This document shows positions 13,845 to 23,790 of a stretch of 64,000 nucleotides of DNA, in pieces. Every line of letters starts with the position of its first letter. The stretch's first letter is position 1. A model generated the notes under the pieces. That model made no database searches, had not been told where the DNA came from, and saw only the letters and a list, made by a program, of their open reading frames with translations. The stretch is taken from NCBI RefSeq assembly GCF_007990445.1, contig NZ_AP019841.1, positions 868,001 through 932,000 on the forward strand. The letters run 5' to 3'. This DNA comes from Leptotrichia wadei. Lineage in GTDB: Bacteria > Fusobacteriota > Fusobacteriia > Fusobacteriales > Leptotrichiaceae. Made by a program: the position numbers and the translations under genes.

Positions 13845-13902
13845 AAATGTAAGATGGTAAAATTTGAAATATAAAAATAGATTAATGGGTGTGGGAGGAA
13901 AT

Positions 13903-16554
13903 ATGGATGAAAAATTAATTAATCTACAAATAGGTGCTTTATTGCACGATATTGGAAAAATTGTTAGAAGAGCTGGTAAAGGTGGAAAAAACAGACATTC
14001 TAAAGCAGGATCGGACTATTTAGAAAATAGAGAATTATTAGATAAAGAAAAATATAGAGAAGTTTATGATATGATAAAATATCATCATAATGAAGAAATA
14101 AATGAAAAATTGAAACAAAATGATAAATTGGATGACAGTTCTTTGGCATATCTTGTTTACGAGGCTGATAATATTGCTTCTGGAGTAGATAGAGTTAAAT
14201 ATGAAGATGAAATAAATGAAAAGGGAGAAAAAGTAAAAATTACTGAAATAGAAGGGTTACCATTAAATTCAATATTTAATAAACTTAATCTTCAAAAGAA
14301 TAAGATAGAAAAAAATTTTGGTTTCTTAAGAAATGACAGGCGTAATTTTAATATTCCCAAAGAAATAAAAGAGAAAAATAAAATAGAGAATACTGAATAT
14401 TTGAATGTGTTAGAGCAGTTAAGAGATGATTTGGAAGAAATGAAGAAAAAGAATATTTTGACACCTGAAAAATTAAATTCAGTATTGGAAGAAAGTTGTA
14501 TATATTTTCCTTCAAGTTCATATGTAGATTATGTCCCTTATTATGATCATGTTAAATTGACAGCTGCAGTAGCTGTTTGCATGTATATTTATGATATGGA
14601 AAAGGAAAATAATAGAGATTATAAAAATAAATATTTTAAAAAGAGCCAAAAGAAGGAAAGAGAAAAAACAAAATTTTTATTTGTATCAGGGGAGTTCACT
14701 GGAATACAAAATTTTATTTATACAATAACATCTAAAATGGCTATGAAATCACTAAGAGGACGATCATTTTACCTGGAACTTTTTATTGAACATATAATAG
14801 ATGAAATCTTGGAAGCATTAAATTTATCAAGAGTAAATTTAATTTATTCGGCAGGAAGCCAATTTTACATGTTATTGCCAAATGTTCCAAAAACGATAGA
14901 AATCTTAGAGAATTACAAAAAAATAGTAAATGATTTTCTTTTGAAGGAATTGGGAACACCGGTTTATTATGAAATATCGCATACTGAAACTTCAGCAGAA
15001 GAATTGGGAAATAAGTTAAGTGAGAATATAAAAAAAGAAAACCAAATTAAAGAAATTTTTAAAAGAAATTCTATTGAAACTTCCAGAAAAAAACTGAATA
15101 GATATTCTGAAAAACAATTGGAAGAAATATTTGATGAAGATAGTGATTTGAATAAAATTTATAATGATACAAAGGAATGTGTGATTTGTAAAAAATCTGA
15201 AAAGGAAGAAATTTTGATAAAAAACTCTCAAAATGAAAGTAATGGAAATATTGAAATATGTGATTCTTGTAAAAATTATATTAAATTAGGAAGAGATATT
15301 TCAAAATCATTTCATCAAAAAAGAACATTTTTTATGGAAAAAAATTGTGAAGAAAAGAGTAGTAAATTAAAATTTCCAAAATATCCGAAAGGATCTGTAG
15401 AAATAGTTTTTAGAAATTTTGAGACAGTTGAGGAAGTAGAAAAAGAAAGTGACAAATTTTATAGATTTTATTCGATAAATGATGATTACTTTGGAAAAGG
15501 AAATTCAAGAAATATTAAAATTGGAAACTATAATATAAAACCAACAAATGAAGAAAAAGAAAATAGTCTTGTTGAATTTACGGAATTAGTTAAAAAGGGT
15601 AAAGGAATTGAAAGACTTGCTGTGCTAAGAGCGGATATTGATAATTTGGGAACTTTATTTCAAACAGGTTTTGAAGATACGGGATTTGTTAATATAGATG
15701 GAGAAAAAGAACCGTATAAATTTGTAAGATTCTCAAAAACAGTAGTTTTGTCAAGATATTTGTCTGATTTCTTTAAAAGAGTGATAAATTTGATATTAGA
15801 AAGAAAAAATTTAACTGATGAAAAGAATGAATTGTTTAAAGAATACTGTAATATAATAACGGAAAGAACAAAAGAAAAAACAGACGGAAGAAATATTGTG
15901 TTAGTATATTCTGGTGGAGATGATGTTTTTGCAATTGGGACTTGGAATGATATTATTGAATTTTCTGTTGACTTAAGAACGGCATTTAAAGAATTTTCAA
16001 GTGATAGAGTTACATTGTCGGCAGGAATAGGATTTTTTGATGAAAATTATCCAATATTTCAAATGGCACAAAAAACAGGAGAATTAGAAAAACTTGCGAA
16101 ATCATATAATGAAAATGAAATTGGCAAAACTGCAAAAGATGCTATTGCATTATTTGGAGTGGAAAAAAATGACAAATTAAATCATGTTTATAAATGGGAT
16201 GATTTTATAGGAAAAGTTTTAAATGAAAAATATAGTTATTTAAAATCTAGGATTAGCTTGAAGGAAAATGAAGAAACAGAAAAAGTATTTGTAGGAAAGT
16301 CAAAATGGTATAGTCTTATGAATCTTATAAGAAGCCAGTTTGAAGAAAAAGAAAATGAAAAACATAGAATTGATATTGCTCGATTTGCTTACATAATTGC
16401 AAGAATAAAATACGATAAACAAAATGAAAGACAGCAAAAAAATTATTTAGATTTGAAAAAACAGCTGTTTGAATGGATAAAAAATGAAGAAGATGCAAAA
16501 CAATTATTGACGGCAATAAATATATTGATTTATGAATATAGAGAAAGTAAATAA
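13903..16554 (+). CDS. csm1: Csm1/Cas10, type III-A large subunit
   Basis: An 883-residue Cas10 that nucleates the type III-A effector complex, makes cyclic oligoadenylates and can cut target-linked DNA. ATG 13,903 follows gtgggagg. The HD nuclease motif LLHDIGK has H15 and D16. A zinc-finger pair CVICKK and CDSCKNY lies mid-protein. The palm/cyclase GGDD sits at residues 671-674 (YSGGDDVFAIG), preceded by the first palm motif LRADIDNLGTLF. Both active sites appear intact. It is first in a csm1-6/cas6 operon. Confidence 0.96.
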   Translation: MDEKLINLQIGALLHDIGKIVRRAGKGGKNRHSKAGSDYLENRELLDKEKYREVYDMIKYHHNEEINEKLKQNDKLDDSSLAYLVYEADNIASGVDRVKYEDEINEKGEKVKITEIEGLPLNSIFNKLNLQKNKIEKNFGFLRNDRRNFNIPKEIKEKNKIENTEYLNVLEQLRDDLEEMKKKNILTPEKLNSVLEESCIYFPSSSYVDYVPYYDHVKLTAAVAVCMYIYDMEKENNRDYKNKYFKKSQKKEREKTKFLFVSGEFTGIQNFIYTITSKMAMKSLRGRSFYLELFIEHIIDEILEALNLSRVNLIYSAGSQFYMLLPNVPKTIEILENYKKIVNDFLLKELGTPVYYEISHTETSAEELGNKLSENIKKENQIKEIFKRNSIETSRKKLNRYSEKQLEEIFDEDSDLNKIYNDTKECVICKKSEKEEILIKNSQNESNGNIEICDSCKNYIKLGRDISKSFHQKRTFFMEKNCEEKSSKLKFPKYPKGSVEIVFRNFETVEEVEKESDKFYRFYSINDDYFGKGNSRNIKIGNYNIKPTNEEKENSLVEFTELVKKGKGIERLAVLRADIDNLGTLFQTGFEDTGFVNIDGEKEPYKFVRFSKTVVLSRYLSDFFKRVINLILERKNLTDEKNELFKEYCNIITERTKEKTDGRNIVLVYSGGDDVFAIGTWNDIIEFSVDLRTAFKEFSSDRVTLSAGIGFFDENYPIFQMAQKTGELEKLAKSYNENEIGKTAKDAIALFGVEKNDKLNHVYKWDDFIGKVLNEKYSYLKSRISLKENEETEKVFVGKSKWYSLMNLIRSQFEEKENEKHRIDIARFAYIIARIKYDKQNERQQKNYLDLKKQLFEWIKNEEDAKQLLTAINILIYEYRESK

Positions 16555-16625
16555 TTTTAGAAATAAGAATTAAAATTAAATATTATAAAATGGAAATTTA
16601 TTACAAATTTAGAAAGGAATTTGTT

Positions 16626-16970
16626 ATGGAAAACAAAACAGTGGAAAAATTAGTAGAAGAAAATAAAAATAATATGGTTACAACAACGCAGTTAAGACAA
16701 CTTTTGTCAAATTCAGTAATAGTAAAAAATAAAATATCTTCAAATGTACTAAAGAAAGAAGACAAATTATCAGATAAATTATTAAACGATGTAAAATATC
16801 TTTTAATAAAGCATACATATCAATGTGGTAGAGAATTTAAAGTAAAAGAATTTGATAAAAAATTTGAAATTTCGGAAAAATTGAAAAAAATAAAAACCAA
16901 AGAAGATTTTGATATATTTTATCGTTATTTAGAAGAAATAGTAGCATACGTGAAATATTATATTGGATAA
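16626..16970 (+). CDS. csm2: Csm2, small subunit of type III-A complex
   Basis: A 114-residue helical protein started at ATG 16,626 behind agaaagga. The mid part LSDKLLNDVKYLLIKHTYQC and the C-terminal IFYRYLEEIVAYVKYY follow the Csm2 pattern. In the complex it forms the inner filament opposite Csm3 and contacts the crRNA-target duplex. It sits between csm1 and csm3, the standard position. Confidence 0.9.
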   Translation: MENKTVEKLVEENKNNMVTTTQLRQLLSNSVIVKNKISSNVLKKEDKLSDKLLNDVKYLLIKHTYQCGREFKVKEFDKKFEISEKLKKIKTKEDFDIFYRYLEEIVAYVKYYIG

Positions 16971-17003: not shown

Positions 17004-17741
17004 ATGAATACATTAAAAGGAAAATTTATTATAACAGGGAAAATAAAAGTTTTAACAGGACTTCATATAGGAACATCTGGAGATTTTTCGGCGATAGGAG
17101 CAGTAGATAACATTGTAATTAGAGATACTGTTACGAATAAACCGATAATACCAGGGTCTTCGTTAAAAGGGAAAATGAGATATTTGCTTTCTAGAACTAA
17201 ATATAATGATAATTCTACATTAACAATGCCAAATATAAAAGAAGAGCATAATGAAATTAGAAGATTATTTGGAAGTTCAGGAAATAAAGAAAAAAACGAA
17301 ATGATAGTTTTGTCAAGATTGCAATTTTGTGATATGCTGCTTAGAGAAAAAGATTATGGTAGAGATGTTGAGTTTGATTTGCCATATACAGAAATAAAAT
17401 ATGAAAATACAATAGACAGGGGAACTTGTGTTGCAAATCCAAGACAGCAGGAAAGAGTACCAGCAGGTTCGGAATTTGATTTTAGATTGATTTATAATAT
17501 TGAAAACACAGAAAATATGAAAAAAGAAGTAAAATGCGATTTTGAAAATATACTTTTGATGTTTGGATTACTTGAAGATGATTATTTAGGAGGACATGGA
17601 ACTAGGGGATATGGTCGTGTTAAATTTGAGGATTTAAAATTGATAGAAAAAGTTTACATAAAAGAAAATGAAGATGATATAGAATATTTGAGATCAGAAA
17701 TTGAAAATATTGAAAATTATACTGAAATATTTGGAAAGTAG
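17004..17741 (+). CDS. csm3: Csm3, backbone RAMP and target RNase
   Basis: A 245-residue RAMP protein that forms the helical backbone and cuts target RNA every six nucleotides. The N-terminal GLHIGTSGDFSAIGAVDN places Asp35 where the catalytic Asp33 of Streptococcus thermophilus Csm3 lies. The glycine-rich PGSSLKGKMRYLL follows and GGHGTRGYGRV closes the fold. The RNase site therefore looks intact. Confidence 0.95.
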   Translation: MNTLKGKFIITGKIKVLTGLHIGTSGDFSAIGAVDNIVIRDTVTNKPIIPGSSLKGKMRYLLSRTKYNDNSTLTMPNIKEEHNEIRRLFGSSGNKEKNEMIVLSRLQFCDMLLREKDYGRDVEFDLPYTEIKYENTIDRGTCVANPRQQERVPAGSEFDFRLIYNIENTENMKKEVKCDFENILLMFGLLEDDYLGGHGTRGYGRVKFEDLKLIEKVYIKENEDDIEYLRSEIENIENYTEIFGK

Positions 17742-17750
17742 GAGAGAATA

Positions 17751-18764
17751 ATGACTTATTTACTGTATAAATTAAAATTTCCAAATGGAATTCATGTTGG
17801 TGCAAACAGTTCTTTAGAATTGACAAGCACAACTGTAAGTTCAGATGTTTTTTATTCTGCTTTTTATGCTGAATATATTAGAATATTTGGCGAAAATGAT
17901 AGAGAATTATTTCAATTAACAGAAAATGATGAATTTAAAATATCAGATTTATTGCCTTTTAAAGAAATGAAAACAGAAACAGTTTTTTATGTTCCAAAGC
18001 CATTTGTGAATGATATTGAAAGAAAACAAAGTAATGATGAAAATGAGCAAGTTGTAGATAGAAAAAAGGTGAAAAAATTAAGTTATATTCCTGCAAATAG
18101 ATTAAAGGAATATTTTGAATTTTTGGAAACAGGAAAAAATTTTCCTGAAATAGATGATGATTTTGGAGAAAAGGAATTACATACTAAAAATAAGGTTTCA
18201 AGAATTGGAGAAGATACAGAACTTTATAATGTTGAAGTTTTTAGATTTAATAAAGATTCAGGACTTTATTTTATTGTGCAATTACCAGAGAAATGGCAGG
18301 AAAAATTTGAAAATGTATTGGAAAGTTTGTCGCTAGCAGGAATAGGTGGGAAAAAAAGTGCTGGATATGGACAATTTAGTATCACAGACGATGCTATGAT
18401 ATTTGATGGAGAATATTTTGATATAATTGAGTCGGAGGACGATAGATTTATAAATGAATCTTTATACAAGGAAAGTGAGAAATATTTACTGTTGTCGTCG
18501 TATTTGCCACAAAAAGATGAAATTGAAAAAATAAAAAATAAAGAAAATGGTTATCAATTAATAAAAAGAAGTGGATTTGTAAATAGTCCTAAATATAGTG
18601 AAAATCCACAAAAAAGAAAGCAAGTTTATATGATTTCTTCAGGAGCAGTATTGAATTTTAAACCAGCAGGAAGATTAGCAGATTTGAAATTGCATGGAAA
18701 TCATAGCATTTACAGAATGGGAAAGCCGATAGCTATAGGAGTGACTTATGGGAAAGATAGTTAA
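17751..18764 (+). CDS. csm4: Csm4, crRNA 5'-tag binding RAMP
   Basis: A 337-residue RAMP (Cas5-like) protein that caps the complex with Csm1 and holds the crRNA 5' tag. The N-terminal strand LLYKLKFPNGIHVGANSSLE and the GIGGKKSAGYGQFSI glycine loop are typical. ATG 17,751 follows aggagag. The end overlaps csm5 by 17 bases, indicating coupling. Confidence 0.93.
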   Translation: MTYLLYKLKFPNGIHVGANSSLELTSTTVSSDVFYSAFYAEYIRIFGENDRELFQLTENDEFKISDLLPFKEMKTETVFYVPKPFVNDIERKQSNDENEQVVDRKKVKKLSYIPANRLKEYFEFLETGKNFPEIDDDFGEKELHTKNKVSRIGEDTELYNVEVFRFNKDSGLYFIVQLPEKWQEKFENVLESLSLAGIGGKKSAGYGQFSITDDAMIFDGEYFDIIESEDDRFINESLYKESEKYLLLSSYLPQKDEIEKIKNKENGYQLIKRSGFVNSPKYSENPQKRKQVYMISSGAVLNFKPAGRLADLKLHGNHSIYRMGKPIAIGVTYGKDS

Positions 18765-20010
18765 ATATAAAATGGAGATGGAAGTTTTGACGCCTGTGCA
18801 TATTGCGGGAGCGAATTATAAGTCAAAATTGAATAAGACTGAATATATTTTTAATCCTAATACAAATGATTTAACAATAATAGATAATAACAAATTTGTT
18901 AATTTTTTGGTAGAGAAAAAAATTATAGACAAGTATTTGGATGAAATTAGAAAAAATAATAGATTAAATTTATATTCTTTTTTAACAAATAAAAGTGGTC
19001 TTTATGACAATAATAATTATGATAATAAAAATAAAAACGAAGCTCTGAAAAAAGATTTAAAAAATTTTACTAAAAAAAGTTACAAAAATTTGGATATAGA
19101 ATTAAAAATTAAAGAAAATGAGAAAAAAGAAAATTTGAATAATATAACTTTATTAAATAAAAATGTAAAAGATGAAGTTTATATTCCTGGAAGTTCAATA
19201 AAAGGAGCTTTGGTAAATCTTTTGTTGGTTAGTTATATTATAAATAATCGAGATGAATTTGTTAATGAAATAAAACAGATAGAAAATGAAGTTGAGAATT
19301 TTGATAAAAAGAGAAATGAATTTGTTAGTAAAGAAAATATTACAGAAAAAGAAATCGAAATTTTCGATAAAAAAAATTCTAAATTTTTCCAAGGAAAAGT
19401 AAAAAATGTAATAAATAAAATACAAGAGAAAATATTATACGAAAATTGCTCAAATAAAAAAATTAAAAAATTTGGAATATCAGTATCAGATAGTTATGAA
19501 AATAAAAAGGATATAGATGTTAATTTTTATCAAGATATTGATGAAAAAATAAAAGATAAAAAGGAAAGTTACTTGCCAGTAGTCAGGGAATATATAGAAC
19601 CTAAAAATATATTTGAATTTGACATTACTTTAGATTTTGAACTACTTTTAAGAACAAGACTTAAAATAAATGATTTTGATGATTTAATAAATGCTCTTGA
19701 AGAATCTACGGATTATCTGATAGAAAATACTTTGAAATTACCAGATGAATTGTGCTGTCAAAACTTAATATTGGGAGCAAATACAGGATTTCATCAAAAA
19801 ACGATCGTTCATGCATTGTTTAAAGATAAAAGTGAAAGAACTCAAGTTGTTAAAATATTATTGCACAAGGGTGGAACAAATGCGATAAGATTACATTTGA
19901 ATGATAAAGATTCTCCAAGAGTAATAAATAGAATTAGAAAAAATGGGAAACTTGAATTAGCAGGATTAGTTGAAATTAGGAAAATATCTGAAAAGGAAGT
20001 GGGAAAATAA
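18748..20010 (+). CDS. csm5: Csm5, distal RAMP subunit
   Basis: A 420-residue RAMP protein that caps the 3' end of the crRNA and recruits trimming nucleases. The start KMEMEVLTPVHIAGANYKSK and the PGSSIKGALVNLLL loop are Csm5 signatures, and TGFHQKTIVHAL lies near the C-terminus. A Lys/Asn-rich insertion in the middle is long but family-typical in AT-rich hosts. It overlaps csm4 and ends one base before the cas6 start region. Confidence 0.93.
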   Translation: MGKIVKYKMEMEVLTPVHIAGANYKSKLNKTEYIFNPNTNDLTIIDNNKFVNFLVEKKIIDKYLDEIRKNNRLNLYSFLTNKSGLYDNNNYDNKNKNEALKKDLKNFTKKSYKNLDIELKIKENEKKENLNNITLLNKNVKDEVYIPGSSIKGALVNLLLVSYIINNRDEFVNEIKQIENEVENFDKKRNEFVSKENITEKEIEIFDKKNSKFFQGKVKNVINKIQEKILYENCSNKKIKKFGISVSDSYENKKDIDVNFYQDIDEKIKDKKESYLPVVREYIEPKNIFEFDITLDFELLLRTRLKINDFDDLINALEESTDYLIENTLKLPDELCCQNLILGANTGFHQKTIVHALFKDKSERTQVVKILLHKGGTNAIRLHLNDKDSPRVINRIRKNGKLELAGLVEIRKISEKEVGK

Positions 20011-20011
20011 G

Positions 20012-20734
20012 ATGCTTGCAAAAATAGAAATGGAAATTGAGGGGAATGGGTTAGATGTGAATATGAGTTCGCTTTTTCATGGATATTTGATGAATAGTAT
20101 TGATTCTGCTTATGCAGATTATTTGCACTATAATGAAACACATCCTTATACTTCGTGTATTTATAAAGATATGGAAAGCGGAAAAATATTTTGGAGAATA
20201 ACGACCTTTAATAAAAATGCTTATGAGATGTTAATAAAATACTTTTTAGAGAATGATGTAAAAAATATTTATTTGGAAAAAAAAGGAATCGAGATAGTTG
20301 TAAAATCAATTTCTATGACAAAAACATCTTTTGATGAACTGTTTTTTAGTAATGAGAAAAAAAGTAAAATATATTTTTTAACTCCGACAACTCATAAATC
20401 AAATGGAGTATTACAAATATTTCCGAATATCTCGACATTACTTCTAGGAGTAATAAATAAAATAAATCAACATTCGGATACAATTAAGTTGGAAGATGAA
20501 AATGTGATAAATGAACTTTTGGAAAAAGTATATATTGATGAATATTATTTAAGAACGAGGTATTTCTTTTTGGAAAATATAAGAGTTAGAGGATTTATTG
20601 GAAATTTAAAGATAAAAATAAAAGGTAAAGATGAGATGCTTTATCAACTTTTGAATTTTTTGCTAAAAGTTTCTGAATATACAGGACTTGGAGTAAAAAC
20701 AGCATTGGGAATGGGAGGAATAAAAATTGGATAA
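20012..20734 (+). CDS. cas6: Cas6 CRISPR RNA endonuclease
   Basis: A 240-residue double-RAMP protein that cuts pre-crRNA inside the repeat, leaving the 8-nt tag ACGGAAAC here. ATG 20,012 is chosen over the upstream frame start. The C-terminal glycine-rich loop YTGLGVKTALGMGGIKIG is the family hallmark. His residues near the start (LFHGYLMN, LHYNETHPY) may be catalytic. Its presence between csm5 and csm6 means the locus processes its own array. Confidence 0.93.
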   Translation: MLAKIEMEIEGNGLDVNMSSLFHGYLMNSIDSAYADYLHYNETHPYTSCIYKDMESGKIFWRITTFNKNAYEMLIKYFLENDVKNIYLEKKGIEIVVKSISMTKTSFDELFFSNEKKSKIYFLTPTTHKSNGVLQIFPNISTLLLGVINKINQHSDTIKLEDENVINELLEKVYIDEYYLRTRYFFLENIRVRGFIGNLKIKIKGKDEMLYQLLNFLLKVSEYTGLGVKTALGMGGIKIG

Positions 20735-22160
20735 TAATAACATTGATGAAAATAAAGAAAGAGTGCTTTTAACATTTGCAGGAAATACTGATCCGACAAG
20801 AGGTAATTATGATGGGCCTATGTTACATATTTGCCGTTATTTCAGACCTGAAAAAATATATTTAGTTTTAACTTCTGAAATGCAAAAAAGAAATGAGAAT
20901 AGAATTTATGAAAAAGCTATAAAAGAAAGTTTGGAAGATTATAATCCAATATTTGAATATATTAATACAGATATTGATAATGCACATTTGTTTGATATAT
21001 ATTTTAACAAAATAAATGAAACATTTAATAAAATAAAACTAGAACATCCAAATGCGGAAGTTTTGGTAAATATAACATCAGGAACTGCTCAAATGATAAG
21101 TAATTTGGTAATGTATATTGTTGATGCTGTAAATATAAACATTGTTCCTATACAAGTAGCAACTCCTGAAGGAAGAGGAAATACTTCAAAAGTTGTAAAC
21201 AATAGCTATGAAGTAAACGATGAGAAAGAAAATAATTTTGATAATATAGAAGAATTTAGAACTAATCGAATATTATTTCCTGATTTGAGACAATATTCAA
21301 GACTTTTGGTGAAAAATCAAATAAAAGAATTGTTAAAAAAATATGAATATTCAACATGTTTAGAACTGTTAAAAAGGGATATTTTTCAAGAAAATAGCAA
21401 ATTAAATGGACTTCTTAATTTTGCAAATGATAGACGACATTTAAAAGGATTGAAATCAAATGGAAAATTAAAAAGTTTGAATGATAAAAAACTTGATAAA
21501 TTTTATTATTATAATAAAAATGAAACAGTTGAAAATAAAGTAAAAGAATGGTACAAAATTGTGGATTATTTTTCACTTGCTAACATTAAGCAAAAATCTG
21601 GTGATATAGCAGGATATACAATAATGCTTGAACCTTTGATTGTAAATATTTATTTGTCAATTTTAAGAGATATTTTTGGGAAAAGATTATCAGATTTATT
21701 TTTAGAAAAAAGAAAAGAAGGGGAATTTAGTTATAAAACAGATATTTTAAAAATTAAAAATTATGTTGGATTAAAAGAAAAAATTGAACATGAATTAGGA
21801 ATTTTAGAATTGAAAAATTCAACATTTGTATCAGATAGTGTGTTAATTGCTACGATTAAATACTTTATTGAAAAAAGTGAGTCTGAAACACTGGAAAAAA
21901 TGGACTTAGAATATTTCTCAAATTTTAGTAAAACTTTGCATAAAATAAAAGAAGTTAGAAATATGATTGCTCATTCATTAAAAACTATTAATAGAGATGA
22001 TTTTAACAGTGAAGCAAAAGTTGGAATAGATACTATAAATAGTAAAATAACTGATTTTTTTAACAAATGTTATACAAATCTTGGATATAAAGAAAATATG
22101 ATATATGTTTATGATGAAATAAACGAAGCTATAAATGAAATTTTAGGAACAGAAAAGTAA
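20727..22160 (+). CDS. csm6: Csm6, CARF-HEPN ribonuclease
   Basis: A 477-residue protein with an N-terminal CARF domain (LLTFAGNTDPTRGNYDGPML, then ILVNITSGTAQM-like strand) that should bind cyclic oligoadenylate, and a C-terminal HEPN domain with R411-x4-H416 (RNMIAH). On activation it degrades RNA non-specifically. The start is TTG 20,727 with gggagga eight bases upstream, overlapping cas6 by eight bases. Both sensor and catalytic motifs look intact. Confidence 0.93.
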   Translation: MDNNNIDENKERVLLTFAGNTDPTRGNYDGPMLHICRYFRPEKIYLVLTSEMQKRNENRIYEKAIKESLEDYNPIFEYINTDIDNAHLFDIYFNKINETFNKIKLEHPNAEVLVNITSGTAQMISNLVMYIVDAVNINIVPIQVATPEGRGNTSKVVNNSYEVNDEKENNFDNIEEFRTNRILFPDLRQYSRLLVKNQIKELLKKYEYSTCLELLKRDIFQENSKLNGLLNFANDRRHLKGLKSNGKLKSLNDKKLDKFYYYNKNETVENKVKEWYKIVDYFSLANIKQKSGDIAGYTIMLEPLIVNIYLSILRDIFGKRLSDLFLEKRKEGEFSYKTDILKIKNYVGLKEKIEHELGILELKNSTFVSDSVLIATIKYFIEKSESETLEKMDLEYFSNFSKTLHKIKEVRNMIAHSLKTINRDDFNSEAKVGIDTINSKITDFFNKCYTNLGYKENMIYVYDEINEAINEILGTEK

Positions 22161-22248: not shown

Positions 22249-22994
22249 ATGAGTAATGTGTATGTTTATGAACAAGGAGCAATGTTAAAATATAAAGAAA
22301 ATCGGTTGATTATTAATTATTCAGAAAATGATTTTAAGTCGATACCAATTGAGAATATAGATAATATTGTGATTTTTGGTGCGATTCAAGTCAGTAAATG
22401 TCTGTTTATTCAAAAAATATAGATAATGCTAAGTCTATTGAAGAATTAATGGGAATAGAAGGACATTTGGCAAAAATGTATTATAAAGGTGTTAGCAATG
22501 TAATTGACAAGGAATATTCATTTTCCCAAAGAACTAAAAGACCGCCAAAAGATCCATTTAACTCTGTTTTGAGTTTTGGATATACACTTCTTCATTATGA
22601 AATATTTACAATTGCTGAATCTAAAGGATTAAATCCTTATGCAGGATTTTTACATTCTGATAGACATAAACATCCTGCATTGTGTTCTGATTTGATGGAA
22701 GAATGGAGACCAATGCTGGTAGATTCTTTGGCAATTGCTCTTTTAAATAATAATAAAATAAAAAAAGAAAATTTTGAATACAATGAAGAAAATGGTGGAG
22801 TATATTTAGACAAAGAAGGATGTAAAAAATTTATTGCTGAATTTGAAAAAAGATTAAGACAGGAAGTCGGATATGTCAAAGAAGTGTCATATAAAATGAG
22901 TTTTAGGCGAATAATAGAATATCAAATAATGCAATTAATAAAAGCAATAGAAGAAGATAATCCAAATTTATATAGTTCGATATTAATAAGGTGA
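22249..22994 (+). pseudogene. cas1: cas1 with internal deletion
   Basis: ATG 22,249 behind gaggt begins a good Cas1 N-terminus (NVYVYEQGAMLKYKENRL, then ENIDNIVIFGAIQVS) but the frame ends at TAG 22,420. From 22,398 another frame gives the Cas1 C-terminal domain with GIEGHLAKMYY (first catalytic Glu), GFLHSDRHKHPALCSDLMEEW (His and acidic residues) and the normal end. Compared with a usual 330-residue Cas1, about 80 codons linking the two are missing and the joint is out of frame. Adaptation is therefore probably lost, unless the 198-residue piece acts alone, which is unlikely. Confidence 0.88.
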
Positions 22995-23001
22995 TGGTAA
23001 A

Positions 23002-23325
23002 ATGGATGAATGGGATTTTTTAGATGAAGATTTTTGTCATGAATTTTTTGAAGATACCTTTACAGTTGTCGTAATTTATGATATTATAGACAACAAGAGA
23101 AGAGCTTTTCTTAAAAATCTTCTAAATTCTTATGGAAATAGAATACAAAGGTCTGCTTTTGAGTGTCTATTGACTAGAGAAAAATGTAAAACACTTTTAA
23201 AAGAAATAGAAAAATTTGCAGAAGAAGGAGATTTAATAAGAATTTACAGGCTTAATCAGAATGTAAAAAAAGTAATTTATGGCGAATTAAATGAAATTGA
23301 AAACGAAGATTATTATTTTTTTTAG
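23002..23325 (+). CDS. cas2: Cas2
   Basis: A 107-residue ferredoxin-fold protein with the N-terminal strand TVVVIYDIIDNKRRAFLKNLL carrying the conserved Asp, and RIQRSAFECLL. It has a slightly long acidic N-terminal extension. With Cas1 it forms the integration complex; here its partner is broken. ATG 23,002 follows aaggtgatgg. It lies just upstream of the array leader. Confidence 0.92.
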   Translation: MDEWDFLDEDFCHEFFEDTFTVVVIYDIIDNKRRAFLKNLLNSYGNRIQRSAFECLLTREKCKTLLKEIEKFAEEGDLIRIYRLNQNVKKVIYGELNEIENEDYYFF

Positions 23326-23461
23326 CAATCGCCACGATACTTTAAAAATGGGGGTTAGAGTATATTTTTTATTGTTAAGGAAGAGAAATATAAAGATTTC
23401 TAAAATTCTCACGAAAATAATAAAATAATATATGATAAAATAAGGGTTTAATTTGGGGAGG
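23326..23461 (+). promoter_or_regulatory. CRISPR leader
   Basis: This AT-rich 136-base stretch lies between cas2 and the first repeat. It includes AAATAATATATGATAAAAT, -10-like elements suitable for transcription into the array. The repeats are best preserved at this end, which fits a leader here. Confidence 0.5.
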
Positions 23462-23790
23462 ATAAAAGAGAATTGAACTCCGAAAGGAGACGGAAACACT
23501 CATAACGAGTGTAATTATCATTATTGAATAGATATAAAAGAGAATTGAACTCCGAAAGGAGACGGAAACATTTTCTAGTCATTTCAATATTAGTATGCCC
23601 AATTACTGCTGATAAAAGAGAATTGAACTCCGAAAGGAGACAAAAATTAGAGAGTGTTTGTGTAATATACACGTAATATACACATTATAATTAAGAAAAG
23701 ATACTCTGAGAGGAGACTAAAATTTTTTTAAGGCTTATTTTATATTGTCATAAATTTATTAAAAAGAAAATTTTGAAAGGGGATGGAATA
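23462..23790 (+). CRISPR. Short decaying type III-A array
   Basis: The 36-base repeat begins ATAAAAGAGAATTGAACTCC and ends GAAAGGAGACGGAAAC. Perfect copies lie at 23,462-23,497 and 23,534-23,569. A third (23,612-23,647) has three changes in its last seven bases. A fourth (23,688-23,723) keeps 16 of the last 21 bases and a fifth (about 23,755-23,790) 12 of the last 16. Spacers are 36, 42, 40 and about 31 bases. The 3' end GGAAAC gives a tag ACGGAAAC and sets transcription on the plus strand. Decay increases away from the leader. Confidence 0.9.

Follow-up and report, generated by a model that had tools for sequence, protein, structure and literature searches.

A short, decayed type III-A CRISPR array in Leptotrichia wadei very probably keeps a guide against temperate-phage integrase genes

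Type III-A immunity depends on transcription of the target, and spacers antisense to transcripts are enriched among its guides (PMC5754349, PMC11708336). In the staphylococcal III-A (Csm) systems described in these studies, guides complementary to phage transcripts direct an effector set that includes Csm6, and silent prophages are tolerated. A closer relative is the Leptotrichia type III-A-Lep1 system (L. hofstadii JCM16775, strain JMUB3936), for which a full set of cas genes, adaptation genes included, has been reported in an account whose main text does not mention an integrase (PMC6914741). We compared with these systems a locus from L. wadei, contained in a window of 64 kb, the whole stretch of DNA that we analyzed, which spans 868001-932000 of contig C1. 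The locus belongs to III-A-Lep1 and has the same gene content. Its type III-A effector genes lie in a single operon on the plus strand, made up of cas10/csm1 (13864..16554, with HD, palm and Csm1_B), csm2 (16590..16970), csm3 (17004..17741), csm4 (17751..18764), csm5 (18748..20010), cas6 (19970..20734) and the CARF-HEPN gene csm6 (20727..22160). The locus thus shares with the staphylococcal systems an effector set with Csm6 and guides complementary to phage transcripts, and we liken it to them by analogy with regard to the tolerance of silent prophages. Unlike theirs, the Leptotrichia array is short and decayed and probably lacks adaptation in cis.

The two adaptation genes follow on the same strand, with cas1 at 22249..22994 and cas2 at 23002..23325. 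At variance with the published account (PMC6914741), cas1 in the window is broken by a frameshifting deletion; compared with the intact L. hofstadii gene of 335 codons, 262 bp are missing after position 22395, and the remaining open reading frame (22398-22994) represents only the C-terminal part of the protein. The frameshift leaves the locus without a functional cas1-cas2 module, which corrects the published view of the locus as adaptation-competent. Such modules are common in type III-A systems and dispensable for interference. Our search of the genome revealed no second cas1 of the same family, and the strain may lack a working cas1 altogether. Because cas1 is broken, it is likely that the array is frozen, in agreement with the decay of its far-end repeats, and its memories are probably relics that the strain cannot update alone. 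The same genome contains a second III-A locus, recognized by a second csm2 (match at 1114678; L337, G000:C1:1106000-1125900); no array was found in the approximately 24 kb fetched around this gene.

The array itself also lies on the plus strand and comprises five repeats. Its leader side (23326..23461) occupies the interval between cas2 and repeat 1 and by eye resembles the L. hofstadii leader; a consensus search returned no sigma-70-like promoter upstream of the array. Repeat 1 (23462..23497) is the 36-mer ATAAAAGAGAATTGAACTCCGAAAGGAGACGGAAAC, and repeat 2 (23534..23569) is identical to it. Between them lies spacer 1 (23498..23533, 36 nt), which has no match in any of the fetched loci, the genus genomes or IMG/VR. 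The end of repeat 1 and the start of spacer 1 together form a small terminator-like hairpin, ACACTC-ATAAC-GAGTGT (23496-23512). Repeat 3 (23612..23647) retains 33 of 36 positions, with the decay located at its 3' end, and together repeats 2 and 3 set the bounds of the 42-nt spacer 2 at exactly 23570-23611. Beyond repeat 3 we found an old spacer 3 of about 40 nt (23648..23687), a decayed repeat 4 (23688..23723, core 16/23), a putative remnant of a spacer 4 (23724..23754, about 31 nt), which is flanked by decayed repeats on both sides and for which there was at most low-complexity similarity and no source, and a decayed repeat 5 (23755..23790, core 15/23). Repeats 4 and 5 stand at array spacing, at 76 and 67 bp. 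With repeats 1-3 excluded, only one window besides repeat 4 reaches a core score of 16 when both strands of the 64 kb are considered, and only nine windows score 15 or 16.

The direction of the array can be deduced from its anatomy. On the plus strand the repeat is predicted to fold into a hairpin (CUCC-GAAA-GGAG in repeat 2) followed by exactly eight bases, ACGGAAAC, as would be expected of the 8-nt 5' handle that Cas6 generates in type III-A systems; a literature search for this handle sequence yielded nothing. The leader side adjoins cas2, and the repeats decay with distance from cas2. We read the array along the plus strand because of this hairpin and 8-nt handle, the leader on the cas2 side and the distal decay of the repeats.

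A first-pass annotation had proposed that spacer 2 is antisense to a tyrosine-recombinase motif, and our analysis bears this out. The reverse complement of the spacer, CAGCAGTAATTGGGCATACTAATATTGAAATGACTAGAAAAT, translates in frame 3 into the peptide AVIGHTNIEMTRK, which contains the GH(x)5T signature of box II. Scored against a box II profile built from 168 distinct peptides of other integrases, the spacer having been left out, AVIGHTNIEMTRK reaches 15.0 bits. The six frames of the 64 kb comprise 127,924 windows, and no other window scores as high (runner-up 11.8 bits). When the spacer was shuffled 20,000 times and each version was read in six frames, not one came up to this score (best 12.0 bits). 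True integrases mostly outscore it, with about 5% of the profile members below, in part owing to the unusual residues (A, V) at its start. Spacer 2 extends up to and including the first base of the presumed catalytic tyrosine codon, whose identity is taken from relatives. The motif had been picked by eye, and an independent test at the level of DNA thus carries more weight.

We searched all 13 genomes of the genus with PF00589, fetched the integrases found and scanned the resulting approximately 2.8 Mb of DNA with an ungapped 42-mer, using the reversed query as a control. The box II segments of four integrases align in register with spacer 2, with identities of 33/42 (L092), 30 (L076), 29 (L083) and 28 (L061). 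The control does not exceed 27/42, such that the best three integrases lie 2-6 bases above it; one site outside of integrases also reaches 29/42 (L135). Differences between the spacer and these relatives are distributed 9/11/28 over codon positions 1/2/3, a third-position bias that fits synonymous drift in a coding relative read in that very frame. The integrases of L092, L076 and L083 have 67-70% identity to that of L061, with H317 and Y326 invariant, and box II in this family reads [EGQ]I[IL]GHTN[IM]xMT[KR][KR]Y, placing the tyrosine nine residues past the histidine. Could an unrelated AT-rich spacer resemble box II by chance when all six frames are considered? The choice of the motif by eye among many possible readings, and the fact that the exact protospacer was not found, would allow for such a coincidence, but we consider it highly improbable given that no shuffle reaches the score, that the DNA matches one family of the same genus in register and above the reversed-query control, that the differences concentrate at third codon positions and that the neighboring spacer 3 points to the same gene region (see below). 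Instead, we conclude with high confidence that spacer 2 is a genuine memory of a temperate-phage integrase gene in or near the L061, L076, L083 and L092 family, that spacer 3 derives from the segment behind such a gene, and that both memories are relics.

The protospacer itself was sought in several collections. With up to 3 mismatches allowed, spacer 2 has no protospacer in the 13 genus genomes, its 32-base core is absent from 98 Fusobacteriota genomes, and no near-exact protospacer was found in the phage, plasmid and IMG/VR collections. In the collections searched, the nearest approach to an exact protospacer in an integrase gene is 33/42. Exact and wobble-degenerate patterns run against IMG/VR returned a single 18-base match (L035), which we rejected as it does not correspond to box II of an integrase. 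BLASTn with the 42 bases, the check proposed in the first-pass annotation, produced only weak chance matches in phages and plasmids, none of them in integrases; the confirmation comes instead from the integrases of the genus. The actual target element may be unsampled. The case of spacer 2 shows that an orphan spacer whose exact protospacer is unsampled can still be traced to its target by matches in the coding frame and at the level of a gene family.

We next considered from which kind of mobile element the spacer was taken, phage and ICE integrases having both been named as candidates. The integrase genes of L061 and L092 neighbor those for DnaN, DUF2800, an Enc34 SSB, DNA polymerase A, VapE and a helicase, the L083 gene lies near a DnaD-like loader and a methyltransferase, and the L076 gene near a primase and a repressor. 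The phage part of the proposal is the better supported, as the nearest relatives reside in prophages and none of the relatives examined is found in an ICE. A match to box II alone cannot separate a phage integrase from that of a satellite or an ICE, integrases of this family are found in a variety of elements, and the L076 surroundings are satellite-like. Nonetheless, an ICE or phage satellite appears an unlikely source, since the L061, L092 and L083 integrases sit beside phage-type replication modules and conjugation genes did not turn up among the approximately 10 proteins tested per element. We thus favor a temperate phage as the origin of spacer 2. Outside of Leptotrichia, these prophage tyrosine integrases (PF00589 with PF14659) have relatives in the Fusobacterium phages Funu2 and phiHugo, whose identity to L061 is only about 37%.

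In the genome of the strain, a related family with a KLIGHNSYTTTEK box II is represented by three integrases that are interrupted or truncated (L129 on contig C2, L043 on C1 and L106 on C3), two of which are located on the small contigs. We rejected self-targeting as an explanation for spacer 2, since the integrases of the own genome match it at 26/42 positions at most, and there is thus no obvious autoimmunity. The 3' flanks of the protospacers in the relatives match the anti-tag in 1-4 of 8 positions, which indicates that these protospacers would not be read as self.

If the array is transcribed along the plus strand, the crRNA of spacer 2 is antisense to the integrase mRNA, as type III targeting requires. 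The complementarity of crRNA and integrase mRNA put forward in the first-pass annotation is supported by the match to the genus family, the third-position bias and the direction of the array. We envision that transcription would start from the leader on the cas2 side, and that Cas6 would cut 8 nt upstream of spacer 2 to yield a crRNA consisting of ACGGAAAC and the spacer. This guide would pair with the part of the integrase mRNA that encodes the catalytic box II, from the GH motif to the codon preceding the tyrosine. Pairing would allow the Csm complex to cut the transcript, would release the ssDNase of Cas10 and would trigger the synthesis of cyclic oligoadenylate, by which Csm6 would in turn be activated. 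Such a guide would act while the integrase gene is being transcribed, that is, in early infection, upon induction or during integration, and would ignore a silent prophage. Spacer 2 may thereby guard the cell against an integrating element. An orphan spacer is in this way linked to a testable target: a lysogeny gene from a defined family of prophage integrases, in an orientation that fits type III.

Spacer 3 provides a second link to this gene region. Its reverse strand contains GTGTATATTAC twice in tandem, and many integrases of the family matched by spacer 2 are followed, directly past the stop codon, by 11-bp direct repeats. In L061, for example, TTGTATACTACTTGTATACTAC is found about 60 nt past the integrase stop. 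In 27 of 250 integrases, the 150 nt past the stop contain a 22-mer that agrees with spacer 3 at 16 or more positions. Dinucleotide shuffles of spacer 3 give 2.5 such integrases on average and never more than 14 (0/500), and an upstream control region gives 1. Relative to the integrase gene, spacers 2 and 3 lie on the same strand. Arm-type sites are short direct repeats beside an integrase gene that are bound by the N-terminal domain of the integrase. From their position and family, the 11-bp repeats probably represent attP arm-type sites of the integrase, and spacer 3 would be an older, decayed unit acquired from the segment directly following an integrase gene of the same family. Alternatively, spacer 3 could be DNA flanking the array, such as an att-site remnant from the former integration of an element at the array end; attP flanks typically carry arm-like repeats, and the degenerate 3' end of repeat 3 is a feature often seen in terminal repeats. 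This origin seems rather improbable to us, however, as repeats 4 and 5 follow at array spacing with a quality almost unmatched in the 64 kb, and as a bona fide type I-C spacer in another species carries the same motif.

This I-C spacer, TCATTAGTCGCTTGTGTATTATGTGTATATTACGCAG, belongs to an array of another Leptotrichia and contains the same arm-like repeat pair (L342, G010:C1:1583166-1583187, minus strand). When the spacer 3 motif was searched with up to 3 mismatches in the 13 genus genomes, this I-C spacer was the only match found outside of the window. The reversed-pattern control also returned one match; the match as such is thus not rare, and it is its location inside a spacer that counts. 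A spacer directed against a temperate phage gene is of a known kind, and what is unusual here is the second match on the same int-att module. We tentatively raise the possibility, for which we hold less than even confidence, that different Leptotrichia CRISPR types converge on the int-attP region of temperate phages, with III-A guides directed against box II and the arm repeats and an independent I-C guide in another species. If so, III-A immunity could block both integration and excision and yet tolerate silent prophages.

In the genome with the I-C array, the I-C locus (L344, 9758-17722) has a cas3 gene split into two open reading frames and a cas1 open reading frame devoid of its N-terminal part. 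In the III-A array of L. hofstadii, the third spacer matches a prophage region at 28/35 positions (L151, minus strand, offset 1806), the reversed control reaching 26.
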